A stretch of 64,000 bases of DNA, taken from the NCBI RefSeq assembly GCF_013415845.1, contig NZ_CP058907.1, positions 4,526,001-4,590,000 of the forward strand, in the 5' to 3' direction. The position numbers and the translations under genes are program-made. The notes beneath the pieces are model-generated. The model saw only the letters and a list, made by a program, of their open reading frames with translations. It had not been told where the DNA came from and did no database searches. The first letter of the stretch is position 1; the number at the start of each line of letters is the position of its first letter. Source of the DNA: Rhodopseudomonas palustris (lineage in GTDB: Bacteria > Pseudomonadota > Alphaproteobacteria > Rhizobiales > Xanthobacteraceae). Shown in pieces: positions 17,482 through 25,417 of the stretch.

Positions 17482-18192
17482 ATGGCGACGATCGACACTT
17501 CCATGGTTGCGAAACTGCCGCTGTTTGCCGGGCTGAGCCGGGCAGAGCTCGACGCCGTGCTGAAGGAAGCGCAGTCGATCCGGGTTCCCAAGAACGGCCA
17601 TGTGTTCGAACAGGGAGAGGACGCCCATTCGTTCTTCGTGCTGTTGCACGGCCACGTTCGCGCCAGCAAAGTGACGCCGGCCGGCGAGCAGATCGTGGTG
17701 CGCTACGTCGCGCCCGGCGAGACGCTCGGCGTGGCGATGGCGATCGGTCTCAACCGCTATCCGGCGACCGCCACCGCGGTCGACGATTCGATCGTGCTGG
17801 CGTGGCCGACCGCGGCCTGGCCACGGCTGGTCGAGCAGTATCTGGCGCTTGCCACCAACACGCTGCGCACCGTCGGCGGTCGGCTGCAGGAGACGCATTC
17901 CCGGGTGGTCGAGATGTCGACCCAGCAGGTCGAGCAGCGCGTCGCCCATGCGCTGCTGCGGCTCGCCAAGCAGAGCGGCCGCAAGGTCGAGAACGGCGTG
18001 CAGATCGATTTCCCGATCAGCCGGCAGGACATCGCGCAGATGACCGGCACCACCCTGCACACCGTCAGCCGGCTGTTGTCGGGCTGGGAGCAGAAGGGCC
18101 TGATCGAAAGCGGCCGGCAGAAGATCGTACTGCGCGAGCCGCATCAGCTCGTGGTGCTGGCCGATCAGGCGCCCGACGACAAGACCTCCTGA
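17482..18192 (+). CDS. nnrR: Crp/Fnr-family regulator, NnrR-like
   Basis: This 236-residue protein has a cyclic-nucleotide-type sensor domain (about 12-125), a long dimer helix and a winged HTH (about 165-225) with recognition segment TGTTLHTVSRLLSGWEQ. It has no cysteine at all, so it cannot bind an FNR-type iron-sulfur cluster. That fits NnrR/DNR proteins, which control denitrification genes in response to nitric oxide. The nirK gene 430 bases downstream and a TTG-N8-CAA box between them support the call. Its 3' end overlaps the convergent DUF1858 gene by 28 bases. Confidence 0.85.
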   Translation: MATIDTSMVAKLPLFAGLSRAELDAVLKEAQSIRVPKNGHVFEQGEDAHSFFVLLHGHVRASKVTPAGEQIVVRYVAPGETLGVAMAIGLNRYPATATAVDDSIVLAWPTAAWPRLVEQYLALATNTLRTVGGRLQETHSRVVEMSTQQVEQRVAHALLRLAKQSGRKVENGVQIDFPISRQDIAQMTGTTLHTVSRLLSGWEQKGLIESGRQKIVLREPHQLVVLADQAPDDKTS

Positions 18193-18389
18193 GACTTCGC
18201 CACCGCTTTACGCAGCGCCGCGAGAAACGGCGCCTCGGCGATGCCATGCTCGTGGCAGGAATCCTCGATCGTGTGAAACGTCGCGATCGGGCAGCCAACG
18301 CAGGCGAGCTTGAAATCCAGGAACACCCGGATCGTCGCCGGCCATCGGCGCATCACGTCTTCGACTACGAGGGTGCGGTCAATCGACAT
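18165..18389 (-). CDS. DUF1858 small redox-disulfide protein
   Basis: This 74-residue protein carries a CVGC motif (C30, C33) in the context LDFKLACVGCPIATFHT, the mark of DUF1858 proteins that occur beside hybrid cluster proteins and denitrification genes. A single-domain protein of this sort may act as a thiol switch or metal chaperone. I chose ATG 18389 (MSIDRTLVVEDVM) over a longer frame. It is divergent from nirK, and both could use the FNR/NnrR-type box at 18439-18452. Confidence 0.85.
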   Translation of the reverse strand: MSIDRTLVVEDVMRRWPATIRVFLDFKLACVGCPIATFHTIEDSCHEHGIAEAPFLAALRKAVAKSQEVLSSGA

Positions 18390-18438
18390 TGTCGTCTCCG
18401 TTGACCCGCCACGCTGACGCCCGGGGCGACTGCGTTCT

Positions 18439-18452
18439 TTGTCGCGCAACAA
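18439..18452. promoter_or_regulatory. FNR/NnrR-type box between DUF1858 gene and nirK
   Basis: The sequence TTG-TCGCGCAA-CAA fits the TTG-N8-CAA core of Crp/Fnr sites. It lies 50 bases upstream of the DUF1858 start codon and 175 bases upstream of nirK, and could serve the divergent genes. The 14-bp half-site spacing is right, but the inner bases of the consensus are absent. Confidence 0.45.
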
Positions 18453-18626
18453 CGTTTCGGTGGGTTCCTACACCTCGTAGTTGTCACATCCAACGAATGG
18501 CGGATGCGGGTGCCCCCGTAGTTGAAAGGTATTCATCTCCGAGCTTGTGCTGGGACAAACAGCGGCGGCGCGGCAGGAGCATGGTTGCGCCAGCCGAGTT
18601 TCAATCCAGCCGCAAGGACCTCTACT

Positions 18627-19739
18627 ATGATGACCCGCCGAGATACTCTGCTGAGCGCCGCCGTCACCGCACTGTTACTCAGCGCGCCGACCGTGGCAGC
18701 AGCAGCCGCTGAAGACGATGTCTCGAAGCTGCCGCGCCAGAAGATCGAACTGGTCGCACCTCCGTTCGTGCACGCGCATCAGCAGGCCACCAAGGACGGC
18801 CCCAAGGTCGTCGAATTCAAGATGGTGGTGCAGGAAAAGGAAGTGGTGATCGACGAAGACGGCACCAAATTCCAGGCGATGACCTTCAACGGCTCGATGC
18901 CCGGACCGCTGATGGTGGTGCACGAGGGCGACTACGTCGAACTGACGTTGGTCAATCCCGCCAGCAACACCATGCCGCACAACATCGACTTCCACGCCTC
19001 GACCGGCGCACTGGGCGGTGGCGCGCTGACGCTGATCAATCCCGGCGAACAGGTTGTGCTGCGCTTCAAGGCAGATCGCTCCGGCGTGTTCGTGTATCAC
19101 TGCGCCCCGGGCGGCAACATGATCCCGTGGCACGTCGTCTCCGGCATGAACGGCGCCATCATGGTGCTGCCGCGTGACGGCCTAAAGGATCGGAGCGGCA
19201 AGCCCCTACGGTACGACCGGGTCTATTACATCGGCGAGCAGGACATGTACGTGCCGAAGGATCCGAACGGCAAATACAAGGCCTATGCGTCGCCGGCCGA
19301 ATCCTACGTCGACACGGCCGAGGTGATGCGCAAGCTGATCCCGACCCATGTCGTATTCAACGGCAAGGTCGGAGCGCTAACCGGCAAGAACGCGATGCCC
19401 GCCAAGGTCGGCGAGACCGTGCTGATCGTGCATTCGCAGGCCAACCGCGACACCCGCCCGCACCTGATCGGCGGTCACGGCGACTACGTCTGGGAGACCG
19501 GCAAGTTCGCCAATCCGCCGGAGACCAATCTGGAGACCTGGTTCATTCGCGGCGGTTCGGCCGGTGCTGCGCTCTACACTTTCAAGCAGCCCGGCGTTTA
19601 CGCCTACCTCAACCACAATCTGATCGAAGCGATCGAGCTCGGCGCCACCGCGCACTTCAAGGTCGACGGCAAGTGGAACGACGATCTGATGAAGCAGGTC
19701 AGCGCACCCGGCCCGATCCCGGGCGGTCCGACCAACTAA
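18627..19739 (+). CDS. nirK: Copper-containing nitrite reductase
   Basis: This 370-residue periplasmic enzyme reduces nitrite to nitric oxide. A Tat-type signal ([11 protein letters not shown]) precedes the first cupredoxin domain. The copper ligand pattern is complete: MPHNIDFH supplies type 1 and type 2 histidines, VYHC gives the type 2 His and type 1 Cys, PWHVVSGM supplies the remaining type 1 His and Met, and the second domain has [13 protein letters not shown] at 18614-18618 supports ATG 18627. nirV follows after a short repeat-containing gap. Confidence 0.97.
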
Positions 19740-19771
19740 GACGCCACGTTTCCGAGGCTCACGTTTGTGAG

Positions 19772-19782
19772 CCCCCCCCCCC
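19772..19782 (+). repeat. 11-base C homopolymer between nirK and nirV
   Basis: Eleven consecutive C residues lie 33-43 bases after the nirK stop codon and directly before a palindromic repeat. Tracts of this length are prone to slippage and to sequencing error. It is not inside a coding region. Confidence 0.9.
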
Positions 19783-19789
19783 TCTTCTC

Positions 19790-19870
19790 CGTCATTGCAA
19801 GGAGCGAAGCGACGAAGCAGTCCAGTCCAGTGCTCGGAGCTGGATTGCTTCGCTTCGCTCGCGATGACGG
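19790..19870. repeat. Palindromic intergenic repeat, family A, copy 1
   Basis: An imperfect palindrome of about 80 bases begins CGTCATTGC and ends GCGATGACGG, with arms containing GGAGCGAAGCGACGAAGCA and TGGATTGCTTCGCTTCGCTC. It separates nirK from nirV. Related copies lie at 34241-34331 and 55544-55630. Confidence 0.85.
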
Positions 19871-19919
19871 GGTGAGATCATCCACGAATGAGCAACAACC
19901 CCAACCCCACCGAACTCCC

Positions 19920-20801
19920 ATGCTGCTCGCCTTCAAAGCCAAGATCGCTCTCGCTGCCCTCGCCGGCTTCGCCACGCCGTTGGTGGTGACGCCGCTGGTG
20001 ATCGGCCATGGCGACGCCGCGCTCGACGGCCAGCAGGCGATGGTCGAGATCGCGCCGGGTGCGATGGACTACCGGCTGCCCGGCGAATTCACCCGCGATG
20101 GCCGGCAGATCGAGGCCCCGCGAACCAAACTGCAGTTCGACCGCCCGCTGTCGATCATGCTGCATCAAGTCAGTGCGGCGGACTATCAACTCTGCGTCGA
20201 TGATGGCGCCTGTCATCCGATGCTGGCCGATACCGCGGTTCGCGCCGACCGGCCCGCCGTGCAGGTCTCATGGCAGGACGCCACCACCTACGCCGACTGG
20301 CTGTCGCGCAAGACCGGCGCACACTACCGCCTGCCGACCGACGCCGAATGGGCATTTGCGGCGGGCAGCAAGTTCAAGGATGACGGGCTCGCCTTGGACA
20401 GCGACGATCCGTCGGTGCGCTGGATCGCGCGCTATGAGCGCGAATCCGATCGCGACAATCTGTCGGCCGCGCTACGTAGCTTCGGCGGCTTCGGCGCCAA
20501 CGAGCGCGGGCTGCTCGATCTGTCCGGCAACGTCTGGGAATGGACCACCACCTGCTTCGACCGCAGCGCGATCGACGCGGCCGGCCGGCCACAGGCTCAG
20601 ACCGCCAATTGCGGCGTGCGGGTCGCCGAGGGGCTGCACCGCGCCTACGTCTCCGATTTCATCCGCGACGCCAAAGCTGGCGGCTGCTCGGCCGGCCTGC
20701 CGCCGATCCACCTCGGTTTTCGCCTGGTGCGCGAGCCGGCGGCGCCGCTCGCCCGGTTGCGGGGGCAACTGGACCGCGTGGTGACGGCGGCGGGGATTTG
20801 A
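19920..20801 (+). CDS. nirV: NirV, formylglycine-generating-enzyme-like protein
   Basis: This 293-residue protein has an N-terminal signal/anchor (about residues 5-30) and an FGE-sulfatase domain with RLPTDAEWAFAAG and LLDLSGNVWEWTTTCF. The nirV gene commonly follows nirK, and its product is thought to help mature or support nitrite reductase, although its reaction is unproven. The start at ATG 19920 gives MLLAFKAK. The gene is separated from nirK by a C tract and a palindromic repeat, so the two may be unequally expressed. Confidence 0.9.
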   Translation: MLLAFKAKIALAALAGFATPLVVTPLVIGHGDAALDGQQAMVEIAPGAMDYRLPGEFTRDGRQIEAPRTKLQFDRPLSIMLHQVSAADYQLCVDDGACHPMLADTAVRADRPAVQVSWQDATTYADWLSRKTGAHYRLPTDAEWAFAAGSKFKDDGLALDSDDPSVRWIARYERESDRDNLSAALRSFGGFGANERGLLDLSGNVWEWTTTCFDRSAIDAAGRPQAQTANCGVRVAEGLHRAYVSDFIRDAKAGGCSAGLPPIHLGFRLVREPAAPLARLRGQLDRVVTAAGI

Positions 20802-20827
20802 ACCGCGACCCAAGGCCGCGCAGGACA

Positions 20828-20841
20828 TTGACGCGCATCAA
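20828..20841. promoter_or_regulatory. FNR/FixK-like box before the nucleotide-salvage operon
   Basis: TTGAC-GCGC-ATCAA differs at one position from the FNR/FixK consensus TTGAT-N4-ATCAA. It is centred about 116 bases before the TTG start of the AMP-phosphorylase-like gene, so a class II promoter would begin near 20876. It suggests activation at low oxygen. Confidence 0.6.
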
Positions 20842-20950
20842 ATGGACCCGCGGGCCGAGCTTCTAGCCTCGGCCATCGCGTGTCCCGGCCCCCTCCGCTT
20901 CGCCACGCGCTCCTGAAGGCCGCCCGGCCGATGCGCGGAGTTGCGCTATT

Positions 20951-22495
20951 TTGAATGCTCCCGATCTCACCCGCCCGCCGCTGACGATCCGGCGGATCAG
21001 CCTCGACACCGGCCGCGAAAACGTCGCGGTGATTTCCCGCCGCTCGCGCGCCCTGCGCCCCGAGGTGTTTCGCGGCTTCAGCCGCGTCGAACTGCGCATC
21101 AACTCCAAGGTGCTGCTGGCGACGCTGATGATCACCGACGACGACGCGATGATCGGCCCCGACGAAGTCGGCCTGTCCGAGCCGGCGTTCCGCCGCTTCA
21201 ATGAGCCGGTCGGCAGTGCCGTGTCGGTGACGCCGGCGCGGTCGCCCGCAAGCCTCGACGCGGTACGCGCCAAAATCCAGGGCCACACCCTGTCGGCTGC
21301 GGAGATCACCGCGATCGTCGATGACCTCGCGCACTTCCGTTACTCCGACATGGAAATCGCCGCGTTCCTGATCAGCGCCGCGCGCTTCACCACGACCGAC
21401 GAACTGCTGGCGCTGGTCGGCGCGATGGCCTCGGTCGGTACCAAACTGACATGGGACACGCCGATCGTCGTCGACAAGCACTGCATCGGCGGCATTCCGG
21501 GCAACCGCACCACCATGATCGTGGTGCCGATCGTCGCCGCGCACGGACTGATGATTCCGAAGACCTCGTCGCGCGCCATCACCTCGCCGGCCGGCACCGC
21601 CGACACCATGGAACTGCTGGCGCGGGTCGATCTCGACGTCGAGCAGATGAAACAGGTGGTGCACGCCTGCGGCGGCTGTTTGGTGTGGGGCGGCCACGTC
21701 AACCTGTCGCCTGCCGACGACATCCTGATCTCGGTCGAGCGACCGCTCAGCCTCGACACGCCGGAGCAGATGGTCGCCTCGATCATGTCGAAGAAGCTCG
21801 CCGCCGGCTCGACCCGGCTGCTGATCGACTTCCCGGTCGGCCCGTCCGCCAAAGTCACCAACGCCAACGAGGCGATGCGGCTGCGCAAGCTGTTCGAGTT
21901 CGTCGGCGATCATTTCGGGATCAGCGTCGAGGTAGTCACCACCGACGGCCGTCAGCCGATCGGCCGCGGCATCGGCCCGGTGCTGGAAGCCCGCGACGTG
22001 ATGGCGGTTCTGGGCAACGAGCCGGGCGCGCCCGCTGACTTGCGCGAAAAATCGCTGCGGCTCGCTGCGCATCTGCTTGAATACGACCCTAAACTCCGCG
22101 GCGGCACCGGTTATGCCCGCGCCAAGGAGCTGCTCGACAGCGGGGCCGCGCTGAAGAAGATGCAGCAGATCATCGACGCGCAGGGGCCTTCGCCGTGTCC
22201 GGCCGAACTCGGCAGCTACGCCGCCGATGTGCTGGCTGCCGCCGATGGCGTGGTCAACGGCATCGACTGTCTGCGCATCAACCGGCTCGCCCGCAGCGCC
22301 GGCGCGCCGGTCGCCAAGGGCGCCGGCATCGATCTGTTCAAGAAGATCGGCGACCGCGTCGAAAAGGGCGAGCCACTGTATCGGGTGTATGCGTCCGACC
22401 GCTCCGAATTCGATCTGGCGCTGGCAGCCGCACAGGCGGAGTCCGGCTTCGCGATCAATCATCACACGCCCGCCGACGTGGATCTGGTGTCGTGA
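20951..22495 (+). CDS. AMP/thymidine phosphorylase-family protein (archaeal AMP phosphorylase type)
   Basis: This 514-residue protein belongs to the thymidine phosphorylase superfamily but has the N-terminal extension (about 1-90) seen in archaeal AMP phosphorylases. The catalytic core has [15 protein letters not shown] near residue 176, then [20 protein letters not shown] and [15 protein letters not shown]. Archaeal homologues phosphorolyse AMP, CMP and UMP to base plus ribose 1,5-bisphosphate. Activity on NMPs rather than thymidine is inferred. The start is TTG 20951 with GGAG about ten bases upstream. Its stop overlaps the GTG of the next gene. Confidence 0.85.
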
Positions 22496-23403
22496 GTGTC
22501 GCCCTCCGCTATCTGGACTCGGCTGCGGACGATGCAATCCGGCTCGCGGCACGGCTCGGCGTGCCTTCGCACCTGATCACGCAGCACCGCTTTCCGGACG
22601 GCGAGATCGCCGTCAATGTCGGGCCCAGCGCAGAAACCACGATCCTGTATCTGCCGCTCGACCAGCCCAACGACAAGCTGGTGACCATCCTGTTCGCCGC
22701 CGAAGCGCTGCGCCGCGAAGGCTGCAACCGGTTGGTGCTGCTGGCGCCGTATCTCTGCTACATGCGCCAGGACGTGGCATTTCATCCTGGCGACGCGATC
22801 AGCCAGAAGGCGATGGGCCGGTTGCTCGCTGGGCTGGTCGACCGCGTCATCACGGTCGATCCGCATCTGCATCGCACGCCGCGGCTCGGCGATGTGTTCC
22901 CAGGTATCGCGGCGGATGAGCTGTCGGCGATGCCGGCGATCGCCGCGGCGCTGCGCGGTACGCTCGATCCAGACACCGTCGTGATCGGGCCCGACTCTGA
23001 ATCCCAGCAATGGGTCGATGCGCTGGCCAAACTGATCGGCACGCGATCGGCGGTGGCGCAGAAGATCCGCCATGGCGATCGGTCGGTCGAAATCGCGTTT
23101 GGCGATGCGAGCGCAATCGCGGGACGGCCGGCACTGCTGGTCGACGATATCGTTTCCTCTGGCGGCACGCTGATCGCCTGCACCCGTGCGCTGCTCGGCG
23201 CCGGCGCAACGTCAGTCGATGCGGTGATCACTCACGCGCTTTTCCCGCCTGCGATGCTGCGCGACTTCGCCGCCGCCGGCATCCGCAGCATCCGCTCCAC
23301 CCACACCGTGCAGCACCCGACCAACGCGATCACGCTCGACGATCTGTTCGTCGAGGCGCTGCGGGGCGAGATCGGCACGACCTTCAAGGAGACCCGCGCA
23401 TGA
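22492..23403 (+). CDS. Ribose-phosphate pyrophosphokinase-like protein
   Basis: This 303-residue protein is homologous to PRPP synthase. It has a phosphoribosyltransferase PRPP loop [11 protein letters not shown] near residues 217-227, the substrate loop [15 protein letters not shown] and DPHLHRTP. It is shorter than E. coli Prs (315) and its RQD loop resembles archaeal forms, so it may differ in substrate from the housekeeping enzyme. GTG 22492 overlaps the upstream stop, and its own stop overlaps the next ATG (ATGA). It probably supplies or consumes PRPP together with the phosphorylase. Confidence 0.87.
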
Positions 23404-25028
23404 GCGTCACCATCCGATTCTGCGGCGCTGCGCGCACCGTCACCGGCTCCTGCTATCTGTTCGAGACCAAGGGCAAGCGCTTCCTGGTCGATTGCGGCCT
23501 GTTCCAGGGCCACAAGACGCTGAAGGAACTGAACTACGGCGCATTTCCGTTCCGCCCCTCCGAGATCGACGCGGTGCTGCTGACGCACGCGCATATCGAT
23601 CATTGCGGCCTGCTGCCGAAGCTGGTGCGCGAGGGCTTCAAGGGACGAATCCTGGCGACGCGGGGCACCATTGATCTGTGCTCCTACATGCTGCCCGACG
23701 CCGGCAGCATCCAGGAGTCCGAAGTAATGATGCTTAACCGTCGCAACGCCGCGCGCGGCAAGCCCGAGGTCAGTCCGATCTACACCCAGGCCGACGCGAT
23801 CGCGACGCTGTCGTCGTTCTATCCGGTCGATTACCAGAGCTGGGTCAACGTGCTTCCCGGCGTGCGCGCAAGGTTCTGGAACGCCGGCCATCTGCTCGGA
23901 TCGGCCTCGATCGAAATCGAGATCGACGGCGAAGGCCGCTCGTCGTCGGCGCTGCGCCTGCTCGCCTCCGGCGATATCGGCCCCGACGGCAAGCTGCTGC
24001 AGCCCGATCCGGAAGCGCCGGCGCATTTCGACTACGTGATCTGCGAGTCGACCTATGGCGACCGCGTGCGCGAGCCGACGTCGCCGAAGCTCCGCCACGA
24101 GCGGCTCGCCGCCGAAGTCAACGCCGCGGCGGCGGCGCGCGGCGCACTGGTGATTCCGGCATTCGCTGTCGAGCGCACCCAGGAACTGATCGTCGACCTG
24201 ATCGACCTGATGGAAAAGGGCACGATCCCGAGCGCGCCGATCTTCCTGGATTCGCCGCTGGCGATCCGCGCCACCGAAGTGTTCCGCCGCCACGCCGCCG
24301 ATCTCGATGAAGATGTCGATGTCGAGCGGCTGCTGGCCTCGCCGCATCTGCGCTTCACCGAGACGGTGGAAGAGAGCAAAGCGATCGCCAAGCTGAATGG
24401 CTTTCACATCATCATCGCCGCCAGCGGCATGTGCGATGCCGGCCGCATCCGCCATCATCTCAAGCGCTGGCTGTGCCGCTCCACCGGCACCGTGCTGCTG
24501 GTCGGGTATCAGGCCAACGGCACGCTCGGCCGCTTCCTCGAAGAAGGCGCCAAGGCGGTGCGGATCATGGGGGAGGAAGTCCGCGTCAAAGCCAAGATCC
24601 GCCGCATCGACGATTACTCCGGCCATGCCGACGCCGGCGAACTGACACGCTGGATCACCGAACGCCGGCCAATCGATCGCGGGCTGTTTCTCGCGCATGG
24701 TGAGGAAACGGCGATCGCCGCATTGGCCGAGCGGCTCGGCGGCGGCGTGCTGCCGGCAGCGAAGATCTTTCAGCCGTTGCTCGACGACGTGTACGAGCTC
24801 GCCGCACCGGTTCCGACCGCGCTCGACGGCAAGCATCGCCGGCGGCTCGAGCCCGAATCGGTGGTCAAGCTCGACTGGCACAACGAGATGTCGAAGCTGC
24901 TGCTCGATATCAACGCCAGCGTCGAAGCGGCGGCCGACGAGCGCGCGCGCAGCGTGATCATTCGCCGCCTGCGCCGCGCGCTTGATGAGAACGGCAATGG
25001 CAACGGCGCGCATGCGGCGCGGCGCTAG
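23400..25028 (+). CDS. Beta-CASP metallo-beta-lactamase-fold hydrolase (RNase-type)
   Basis: This 542-residue protein has the HTHAHIDHCGLLP metal-binding motif (H63, H65, D67, H68), a later NAGHLLGSAS motif, and the beta-CASP insert with IPAFAVERTQELI and IIIAASGMCDAGRI. It ends with the DDYSGHADAGEL histidine motif. Such enzymes are usually RNA endonucleases/exonucleases of the CPSF/RNase J superfamily. It is the last gene of the three-gene overlapping operon. A Gly/Asn-rich tail closes it. The role in this operon (releasing nucleotides from RNA) is inferred. Confidence 0.9.
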   Translation: MSVTIRFCGAARTVTGSCYLFETKGKRFLVDCGLFQGHKTLKELNYGAFPFRPSEIDAVLLTHAHIDHCGLLPKLVREGFKGRILATRGTIDLCSYMLPDAGSIQESEVMMLNRRNAARGKPEVSPIYTQADAIATLSSFYPVDYQSWVNVLPGVRARFWNAGHLLGSASIEIEIDGEGRSSSALRLLASGDIGPDGKLLQPDPEAPAHFDYVICESTYGDRVREPTSPKLRHERLAAEVNAAAAARGALVIPAFAVERTQELIVDLIDLMEKGTIPSAPIFLDSPLAIRATEVFRRHAADLDEDVDVERLLASPHLRFTETVEESKAIAKLNGFHIIIAASGMCDAGRIRHHLKRWLCRSTGTVLLVGYQANGTLGRFLEEGAKAVRIMGEEVRVKAKIRRIDDYSGHADAGELTRWITERRPIDRGLFLAHGEETAIAALAERLGGGVLPAAKIFQPLLDDVYELAAPVPTALDGKHRRRLEPESVVKLDWHNEMSKLLLDINASVEAAADERARSVIIRRLRRALDENGNGNGAHAARR

Positions 25029-25207
25029 CCCCGCTATGAATCGAACCTCATGGTCTGAATACCATTAGAGCAAGGTTTGATTCACTCTCGGCATTAGAAC
25101 ACCGCCGCGCCGGCGGATCGCGCGATTCGCTTGCAGCTATTCGAATTGCATTCCCCCGAGGGCTGTGTGCTAGACTATCTCGCATGTGCACAATCCGGGG
25201 GACGCTC

Positions 25208-25417
25208 GTGAGTGCGAACTATCATGTCGCCGAAGGCGACCAGAACGCGCTTGGTCAGTATCTGGTCGCCCGGGCGACCAGCTGCAGTGCCGATCGACGT
25301 CCGCACCTGAAGATCGCCTGCATCCATTGTGGCGCCGAATACGTCGCCGCCGAAGTCAATTTTCATGCGTGTAAATGCCCGTCCTGCCAGAACGGTGCCG
25401 GCAACCTGCTGCTCTGA
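25208..25417 (+). CDS. Small zinc-ribbon protein
   Basis: This 69-residue protein has two cysteine knuckles: CIHC near residues 38-41 and a later CKCPSC, in the arrangement of a zinc ribbon. I chose GTG 25208 because GGGGGA lies seven bases upstream; an in-frame ATG at 25184 would add eight residues. The upstream TAGACTAT near 25171 may be a -10 element. It could bind nucleic acid or another protein, but no family is recognised. Confidence 0.6.
   Translation: MSANYHVAEGDQNALGQYLVARATSCSADRRPHLKIACIHCGAEYVAAEVNFHACKCPSCQNGAGNLLL

Follow-up and report, generated by a model that had tools for sequence, protein, structure and literature searches.

A conserved gene pair of Rhodopseudomonas palustris encoding an NMP-phosphorylase-type protein and a PRPP-synthase paralogue with an altered active site: a possible ribose 1,5-bisphosphate module used at low oxygen

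The window analysed here is a 64,000-nucleotide stretch of Rhodopseudomonas palustris DNA (assembly GCF_013415845.1, contig NZ_CP058907.1, positions 4,526,001 to 4,590,000 of the forward strand) from a genome that forms a single contig of 5,322,414 bases. It carries three consecutive genes, encoding a nucleoside 5′-monophosphate (NMP) phosphorylase-type protein (TP), a divergent paralogue of phosphoribosyl pyrophosphate (PRPP) synthase (PRS-like) and a metallo-beta-lactamase (MBL) nuclease of the beta-CASP type (Table 1). The stop-to-start overlaps described in an earlier, sequence-only reading of this DNA are confirmed by the letters and the open frames, with a GTGA overlap at the TP/PRS-like junction and an ATGA overlap at the PRS-like/nuclease junction, and a GGAG is located approximately 10 bases upstream of the TTG start of TP.

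Table 1. Features of the TP operon (positions are those of the 64,000-nucleotide window)
Feature	Coordinates	Strand	Details
TP, NMP phosphorylase-type protein	20951..22495	+	514 aa, TTG start, stop TGA 22493-22495; TIGR02645/PRK04350
PRS-like, divergent PRPP-synthase paralogue	22492..23403	+	303 aa, GTG start, stop 23401-23403; PRK07199
Beta-CASP metallo-beta-lactamase nuclease	23400..25028	+	542 aa, ATG start, stop TAG 25026-25028
FNR/FixK-type box TTGACGCGCATCAA	20828..20841	+	exact TTGAN6TCAA, 123 bases before TP start

TP exceeds the cut-offs of the NMP phosphorylase profiles TIGR02645 (698.4 bits, cut-off 434.6) and PRK04350 (708.5 bits, cut-off 434), and the TIGR02645 alignment spans residues 11–503 of its 514. 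Models of DeoA and of thymidine and pyrimidine phosphorylases align only from about residue 103, which indicates that TP has the extra N-terminal domain found in the archaeal enzyme. The AMP phosphorylase of Thermococcus kodakarensis (PDB 4ga4–4ga6; TK0352 in PMC9700705), which splits AMP, CMP and UMP to yield ribose 1,5-bisphosphate (R15P), likewise joins an N-terminal domain to a thymidine-phosphorylase-like core. One of its structures, 4ga5, is the nearest solved one to TP (350 bits, the best pyrimidine phosphorylase scoring 130); the motifs PGN[RK]T, SSRAIT and WGG are common to the two proteins and not to Escherichia coli DeoA, and a PADD stretch is also shared. The partners differ, being PRS-like and the nuclease for TP and R15P isomerase and RuBisCO for the archaeal enzyme. 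Because TP misses the AMP phosphorylase equivalog TIGR03327 (492.9 bits, cut-off 535), its profile matches call for the name NMP-phosphorylase type and not AMP phosphorylase; the sequence-only reading thus described the archaeal-type build correctly and overstated the name. In a 48-row tree the window's TP groups with Nitrobacteraceae inside the bacterial TPs, its closest relative in the named set being that of Rhodopseudomonas sp. B29 (91%), and the two archaeal enzymes fall on the bacterial-TP side, away from the very long branch of E. coli DeoA, with the deep forks unresolved. At present the annotation given is thymidine phosphorylase family (NF003338; PMC6515984). The family of TP, its motifs and the PhnN fusions described below suggest that it splits NMPs to base and R15P, and it is probably an R15P-forming enzyme.

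Conservation of the genes was followed in 80 named loci, in a class sample of 289 genomes, where TP was detected at E 1e-100 in 42 (38 over cut-off), and in a phylum sample of 398 genomes with TP in 45 (43 over cut-off); genomes G000, G145, G183 and G244 belong to both samples. The gene order is conserved far beyond chance, in line with the joint conservation on which the sequence-only reading had depended: PRS-like lies immediately 3′ of TP in 68 of the 80 named loci (66 by script, and L115 and L126 from coordinates). Of 28 new loci in the phylum sample 27 show the same adjacency, but only 15 of 30 class-sample loci do, the window's included. The nuclease, whose Lactamase_B, Beta-Casp and RMMBL domains all exceed their Pfam cut-offs, as expected of the RNase-type metallohydrolase proposed earlier, accompanies TP in 44 of the 80 loci, on the same strand and no more than 1.6 kb away, and is found within 1.5-kb flanks in 21 of the 30 (again with the window's). 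Its nearest solved structure is RNase TTHA0252 (PDB 2dkf, 3iek; 252 bits), a protein of the same MBL, beta-CASP and RMMBL type relative to which it has approximately 95 extra C-terminal residues. Two orders were found, TP-PRS-MBL and MBL-TP-PRS, and 23 named loci, mostly gamma- or betaproteobacterial by title, have TP-PRS without the nuclease despite more than 3 kb of downstream sequence; TP-PRS is therefore the core and the nuclease an accessory. An apparent MBL-TP fusion in L033 (an open frame of approximately 1000 aa) was rejected, the nuclease being in another frame.

PRK07199, the family to which PRS-like belongs (397.6 bits, cut-off 322), follows TP from genome to genome. It was over cut-off in 20 of the 42 TP-positive genomes of the class sample and in none of 20 TP-negative ones, and was present in 40 of the 45 TP-positive genomes of the phylum sample (36 of the 41 tested together, 35 of them over cut-off, and four from the class search). 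None of the 18 TP-negative phylum genomes tested had it, so that PRK07199 without TP was found in 0 of the 38 TP-negative genomes tested in both samples together. Four of the five phylum genomes with TP and without PRK07199 are those with a PhnN::TP fusion, and the fifth has a truncated TP.

PhnN (ribose 1,5-bisphosphate phosphokinase) is best known from phosphonate degradation, and R15P metabolism is known from phosphonate breakdown as well as from the archaeal route. PhnN, a guanylate-kinase-like protein and in this unlike PRS-like, converts R15P to PRPP (PMC11452294, PMC9700705). It is fused to TP in plasmid-encoded proteins of 717 aa (Variovorax sp. SRS16) and 708 aa (Pacificitalea) in which both halves are recognised, the latter being below cut-off for TIGR02645 and above it for PRK04350, and further fusions were detected in G065, in G649 (profile-confirmed) and, by tblastn in one frame, in G572, G639 and G515. 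In the three fusions that were inspected, the PhnN half retains its Walker motif. nadC is found immediately before the fused gene in all seven fusion loci, and PRK07199 in none of the five whole genomes that carry a fusion. Since the fused partner uses R15P to make PRPP, the fusions suggest that the TP half yields R15P, the product named in the sequence-only reading. An unfused case is provided by G165 (L168), whose TP shares a supported 26-row group with that of the window and is adjoined by a divergent phnN. The same substrate is proposed for PhnN and PRS-like, and PhnN is fused to TP or encoded next to it in genomes in which PRK07199 was not detected.

PRS-like is PRPP-synthase sequence along its full length (TIGR01251, 171.7 bits, cut-off 113) and keeps the ribose 5-phosphate loop DDxxxxGGT. 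In agreement with the sequence-only reading, it is not the housekeeping enzyme, for a canonical PRPP synthase is encoded in the same genome (G000:C1:4769012, 386.9 bits). This paralogue, which accompanies TP and has an altered active site, was only touched on in that reading and is the most interesting part of the locus. When 113 relatives (97 distinct, the window's included) were compared with 11 canonical sequences, F34, D36, E38, R92, Q93, H125, D168, K191, R193, D218, D219 and T226 were kept alike in PRS-like and the canonical enzymes, with H125, K191 and R193 present in all 97. Position 170 of the pyrophosphate loop is Glu in 97/97 PRS-like and Gly in 11/11 canonical sequences, and the catalytic His is followed by LHR in 97/97 (giving HLHR, found in 0/11) against A/S-x-Q in the canonical set. 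E170, H127 and R128 recur in all 30 further PRS-like sequences from the phylum sample, and five solved PRPP synthases have Gly where E170 aligns and HLHR in none. In the flag loop, position 95 (human K99, E. coli R99) is Val in the window and Arg in 11/11 canonical sequences. Loss of the basic residue there was dropped as an absolute mark, as 31 of the 97 relatives have Lys (22) or Arg (9), and D196 was dropped as a mark unique to the family. The class I E. coli Prs and the class III Methanocaldococcus jannaschii enzyme (1u9y) thus have in common with PRS-like the adenine-site residues F34/D36/E38/R92/Q93, H125, D168, K191/R193 and the ribose 5-phosphate loop, and differ from it in having Gly in place of E170, in lacking HLHR at the catalytic His, and at position 95, which is not reliably basic in PRS-like.

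In the E. coli structure, the Asp aligned with position 168 fixes the metal at the hydroxyls of the ribose, the catalytic His forms a salt bridge to the alpha-phosphate, and R99 one to the beta-phosphate (PMC9232217). For the human enzyme, K99A, K194A and R196A are reported without detectable activity, and H130A yields ADP in place of AMP (PMC4363470). Set against these contacts, the active site of PRS-like appears altered at the place of the pyrophosphate and kept at the adenine, the ribose and the phosphorus that is attacked, a pattern that leans towards a reaction coupled to ADP/AMP.

Low-oxygen control was proposed in the sequence-only reading from the FNR-like box between the FGE-type (nirV-like) gene (19767–20801) and TP. 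TTGACGCGCATCAA is the only exact TTGAN6TCAA in the window, with a shuffle expectation of 0.34; as 27 of 100 shuffled windows also hold at least one exact box, the lone site is weak evidence, and weight is placed instead on close relatives. Among these, a box with at most one mismatch is found within 150 bp 5′ of TP in 12 of 15, against 95 of 1978 background stretches, so that a TTGAN6TCAA-type site upstream of TP counts as conserved in the manner of a FixK/FNR regulon. No sigma-70-like promoter was found in the search of 20700–25300. For Bradyrhizobium diazoefficiens, low-oxygen expression of genes in this order is on record: bll3117-bll3116-bll3115 carry the same three annotations in the same order as the trio (PMC9104804, PMC6515984), and at 0.5% oxygen they are increased by log2 2.1, 4.4 and 2.9 as proteins and 5.1-, 7.7- and 15.4-fold as transcripts (PMC6515984, Table 2), with no value given in the column taken to be nodules. 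Without FixK2, bll3117 is down 6.6-fold and bll3115 30.6-fold, bll3116 being linked to FixK2 only as a member of the predicted operon, for which the predicted FixK2 box is ATGATCTGGGTCAA (PMC9104804, Table 2). The same letters occur 5′ of TP in L075 and L079. The likeness of the two operons lies in annotation, order and predicted box, and is a match by description only. A regulator of the FixK/FNR type is proposed to turn on the operon in the window's family. No function is put forward for bll3117-3116-3115 in the passages concerned of PMC9104804 and PMC6515984. A literature search, mostly outside subscription papers, returned no passage giving the trio a function, and PMC2908626 and PMC4999443 had no match to the words phosphorylase, phosphoribosyl, pyrophosphokinase or metallo.

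Taken together, these observations favour, with a probability of about one half, the reading that the three genes form a bacterial module for NMP phosphorolysis at low oxygen, in which PRS-like consumes the R15P formed by TP. The nuclease would supply NMPs from RNA, a source proposed here by conjecture, TP would convert NMP and phosphate to base and R15P, and PRS-like would accept R15P in place of ribose 5-phosphate and ATP, returning the ribose as PRPP or ribose 5-phosphate and so filling the role that PhnN would have where it is fused or adjacent to TP; a FixK/FNR-type regulator would turn the operon on in this family. That PRS-like tracks TP, with exceptions in the phylum sample that are mostly PhnN::TP genomes, makes TP a probable maker of R15P and PRS-like its probable outlet. 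The data do not separate the two exits. Identical adenine-site residues, attack on the same phosphorus and the exclusion of the terminal phosphate expected from E170 incline the choice to R15P + AMP -> ribose 5-phosphate + ADP. In its boldest form, which is speculative and rather unlikely, PRK07199 would be a new AMP/ADP-coupled R15P phosphotransferase that, together with TP, provides an oxygen-limited route from RNA-derived NMPs to pentose phosphate at no cost in ATP, conserves the glycosidic-bond energy and feeds phosphoketolase and acetate kinase. A phosphoketolase gene is present in the window's genome, and a phosphoketolase-acetate kinase operon is also listed in Table 2 of PMC9104804.

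A number of findings weigh against the module reading. PRK07199 is missing from 22 of the 42 TP-positive class genomes, comprising a genome with the PhnN::TP fusion (G065), another in which phnN adjoins TP (G165), 15 that do not exceed 2.5 Mb in size and five that do; PhnN is encoded elsewhere in three of these five (G135, G236, G280) and was not found at 1e-15 in the other two (G093, G231). Genome-wide, PhnN is not associated with TP (7/42 TP-positive genomes against 4/20), and only its adjacency or fusion bears on R15P; in the window's genome it is far off, at 752171. The fused TP halves inspected, three in number, read WNG where other TPs have WGG, so the base that they use may differ, and the three form one clade in the tree, so the fusion may have a single origin. 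TP, as noted, misses the AMP phosphorylase equivalog, and no bacterial member was found with a measured activity. D196 is not distinctive, being present in the solved enzymes 3mbi and 3lpn. In 36 of the 80 loci (seven of them near contig ends) TP has no nuclease beside it. The box is absent from three of the 15 close relatives and mostly missing outside the window's own family, since in the wider set an exact one lies within 400 bp in just 7 of 79 loci, against 71 of 3283 background stretches, and, under the older definition of 2008, Table 2 of PMC6515984 marks none of the three B. diazoefficiens genes as directly targeted by FixK2.

The kept ribose 5-phosphate loop (D218, D219, T226), K191/R193 and catalytic H125 would also suit canonical PRPP synthesis by PRS-like. 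A diverged but otherwise ordinary PRPP synthase (ribose 5-phosphate + ATP -> PRPP + AMP), in an operon that supplies PRPP and clears or rebuilds NMPs with TP acting as a phosphorylase or in the synthetic direction, is an unlikely alternative that these residues support, and a 2026 preprint describes universally conserved catalytic residues as retained across the major PRPP synthase classes (PMC13252144, section 6), PRK07199 possibly corresponding to one of its classes IV–XI. The alternative is at odds with the canonical enzyme encoded in the same genome, the invariant Glu for the Gly of the pyrophosphate loop, the absence of PRK07199 from all TP-negative genomes tested, and the poor conservation of the phosphate-binding position whose human K99A substitution leaves no detectable activity (PMC4363470). 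Also unlikely is that PRS-like is a non-homologous stand-in for PhnN (R15P + ATP -> PRPP + ADP), taking NMPs straight to PRPP for base salvage or for NAD or amino-acid synthesis. Its case lies in the lack of PRK07199 from all five whole genomes with PhnN::TP and in NadC, a PRPP consumer, adjoining every fusion, whereas no PRPP consumer was seen conserved in the trio, the adenine site and catalytic His are the ones that serve release of AMP from the beta-phosphate, and the contacts in PMC9232217 suggest that the nucleotide would have to shift before a sugar 1-phosphate could attack the gamma-phosphate.

TP would very improbably be a plain thymidine phosphorylase of nucleoside salvage with functionally unlinked neighbours, as its annotation (NF003338; PMC6515984) implies; the order is conserved in many genomes and plasmids, including that of a chlamydial relative, a fusion to PhnN makes little sense for a nucleoside enzyme, and the DeoA models leave the N-terminal domain unaligned. 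The archaeal NMP shunt, in which isomerisation of R15P gives ribulose 1,5-bisphosphate for carboxylation by RuBisCO, was raised in the sequence-only reading and is scarcely credible here. The archaeal type of TP and four RuBisCO-family matches in the window's genome speak for it, but R15P isomerase was over cut-off in none of the 42 TP-positive class genomes, in a search that passes in 3 of 14 control genomes, MtnA is the sole IF-2B homologue of the window's genome, so that the genome search proposed in that reading yielded a PhnN encoded far off and no isomerase, and RuBisCO is not associated with TP (5/42 against 4/20); the RuBisCO branch was therefore rejected for this class.

R15P metabolism is known from archaea (PMC9700705), and the evidence assembled here points to a widespread bacterial form with two interchangeable outlets, one of them, PRK07199, being annotated as an ordinary PRPP synthase despite its altered active site. 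The three low-oxygen genes, whose role was not met with in print, would gain a testable function, and two family annotations, 'thymidine phosphorylase family' and 'ribose-phosphate diphosphokinase', would be corrected.

The nadC-PhnN::TP arrangement (L148, L149, L167, L209, L210, L211 and L212) suggests a PRPP-recycling conversion of quinolinate to nicotinate, in which NadC would make nicotinate mononucleotide, TP would free nicotinate and R15P from it, and PhnN would restore PRPP. A bug27-nadC-phnN arrangement has been published (PMC11452294), the phosphorylase half not being mentioned in the passage concerned. TRAP, tripartite or MFS transporter genes are located near the fusion in six loci examined (L211 is not among them), L210 also has a molybdopterin-hydroxylase-type gene, and a protein of approximately 400 aa with a SIR2-like match is encoded 3′ of the fusion in two differently classified genomes (L167, 822–2024; L210, 3479–4684). 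Seven small alphaproteobacterial genomes that are 78–100% complete (G047, G172, G268, G038, G002, G069 and G166) retain TP, their best match to the PRPP-synthase model being 1.5e-7 or weaker and confined to a short stretch; a histidine phosphatase gene immediately precedes TP in G047 (L170, 2422–3084), and the TP motif is degraded in G038.

Upstream of the operon, the window encodes at 17482–20801 a Crp/Fnr regulator, a hybrid-cluster-associated DUF1858 protein, the copper nitrite reductase nirK and the FGE-type (nirV-like) gene. Linkage of nirK-nirV to TP is local and was set aside as a general feature, since a tblastn search at 1e-8 with up to 10 kb of flank found nirK near TP only here and in L068 (Rhodopseudomonas sp. 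B29) among the 80 named loci. The conserved order reaches plasmids, 115 plasmid records having a TP match (at 1e-60) and 102 a PRS-like match (at 1e-25), and neighbours on those viewed include copper or heavy-metal ATPases and universal stress proteins. On the Criblamydia plasmid, that of the chlamydial relative, the neighbours are phosphoketolase, glycogen phosphorylase, an ATP-cone protein and acetate kinase, the ATP-cone protein (L151, 3774–4616) having a weak Mrr-like nuclease match and being encoded between glycogen phosphorylase and the trio nuclease. TP, PRS-like and a copper ATPase are of equal lengths in L156 and L157, a Paracoccus plasmid and a plasmid deposited as Dysgonomonadaceae, with the ATPases 100% identical, which reflects either a recent transfer or a misassigned record.

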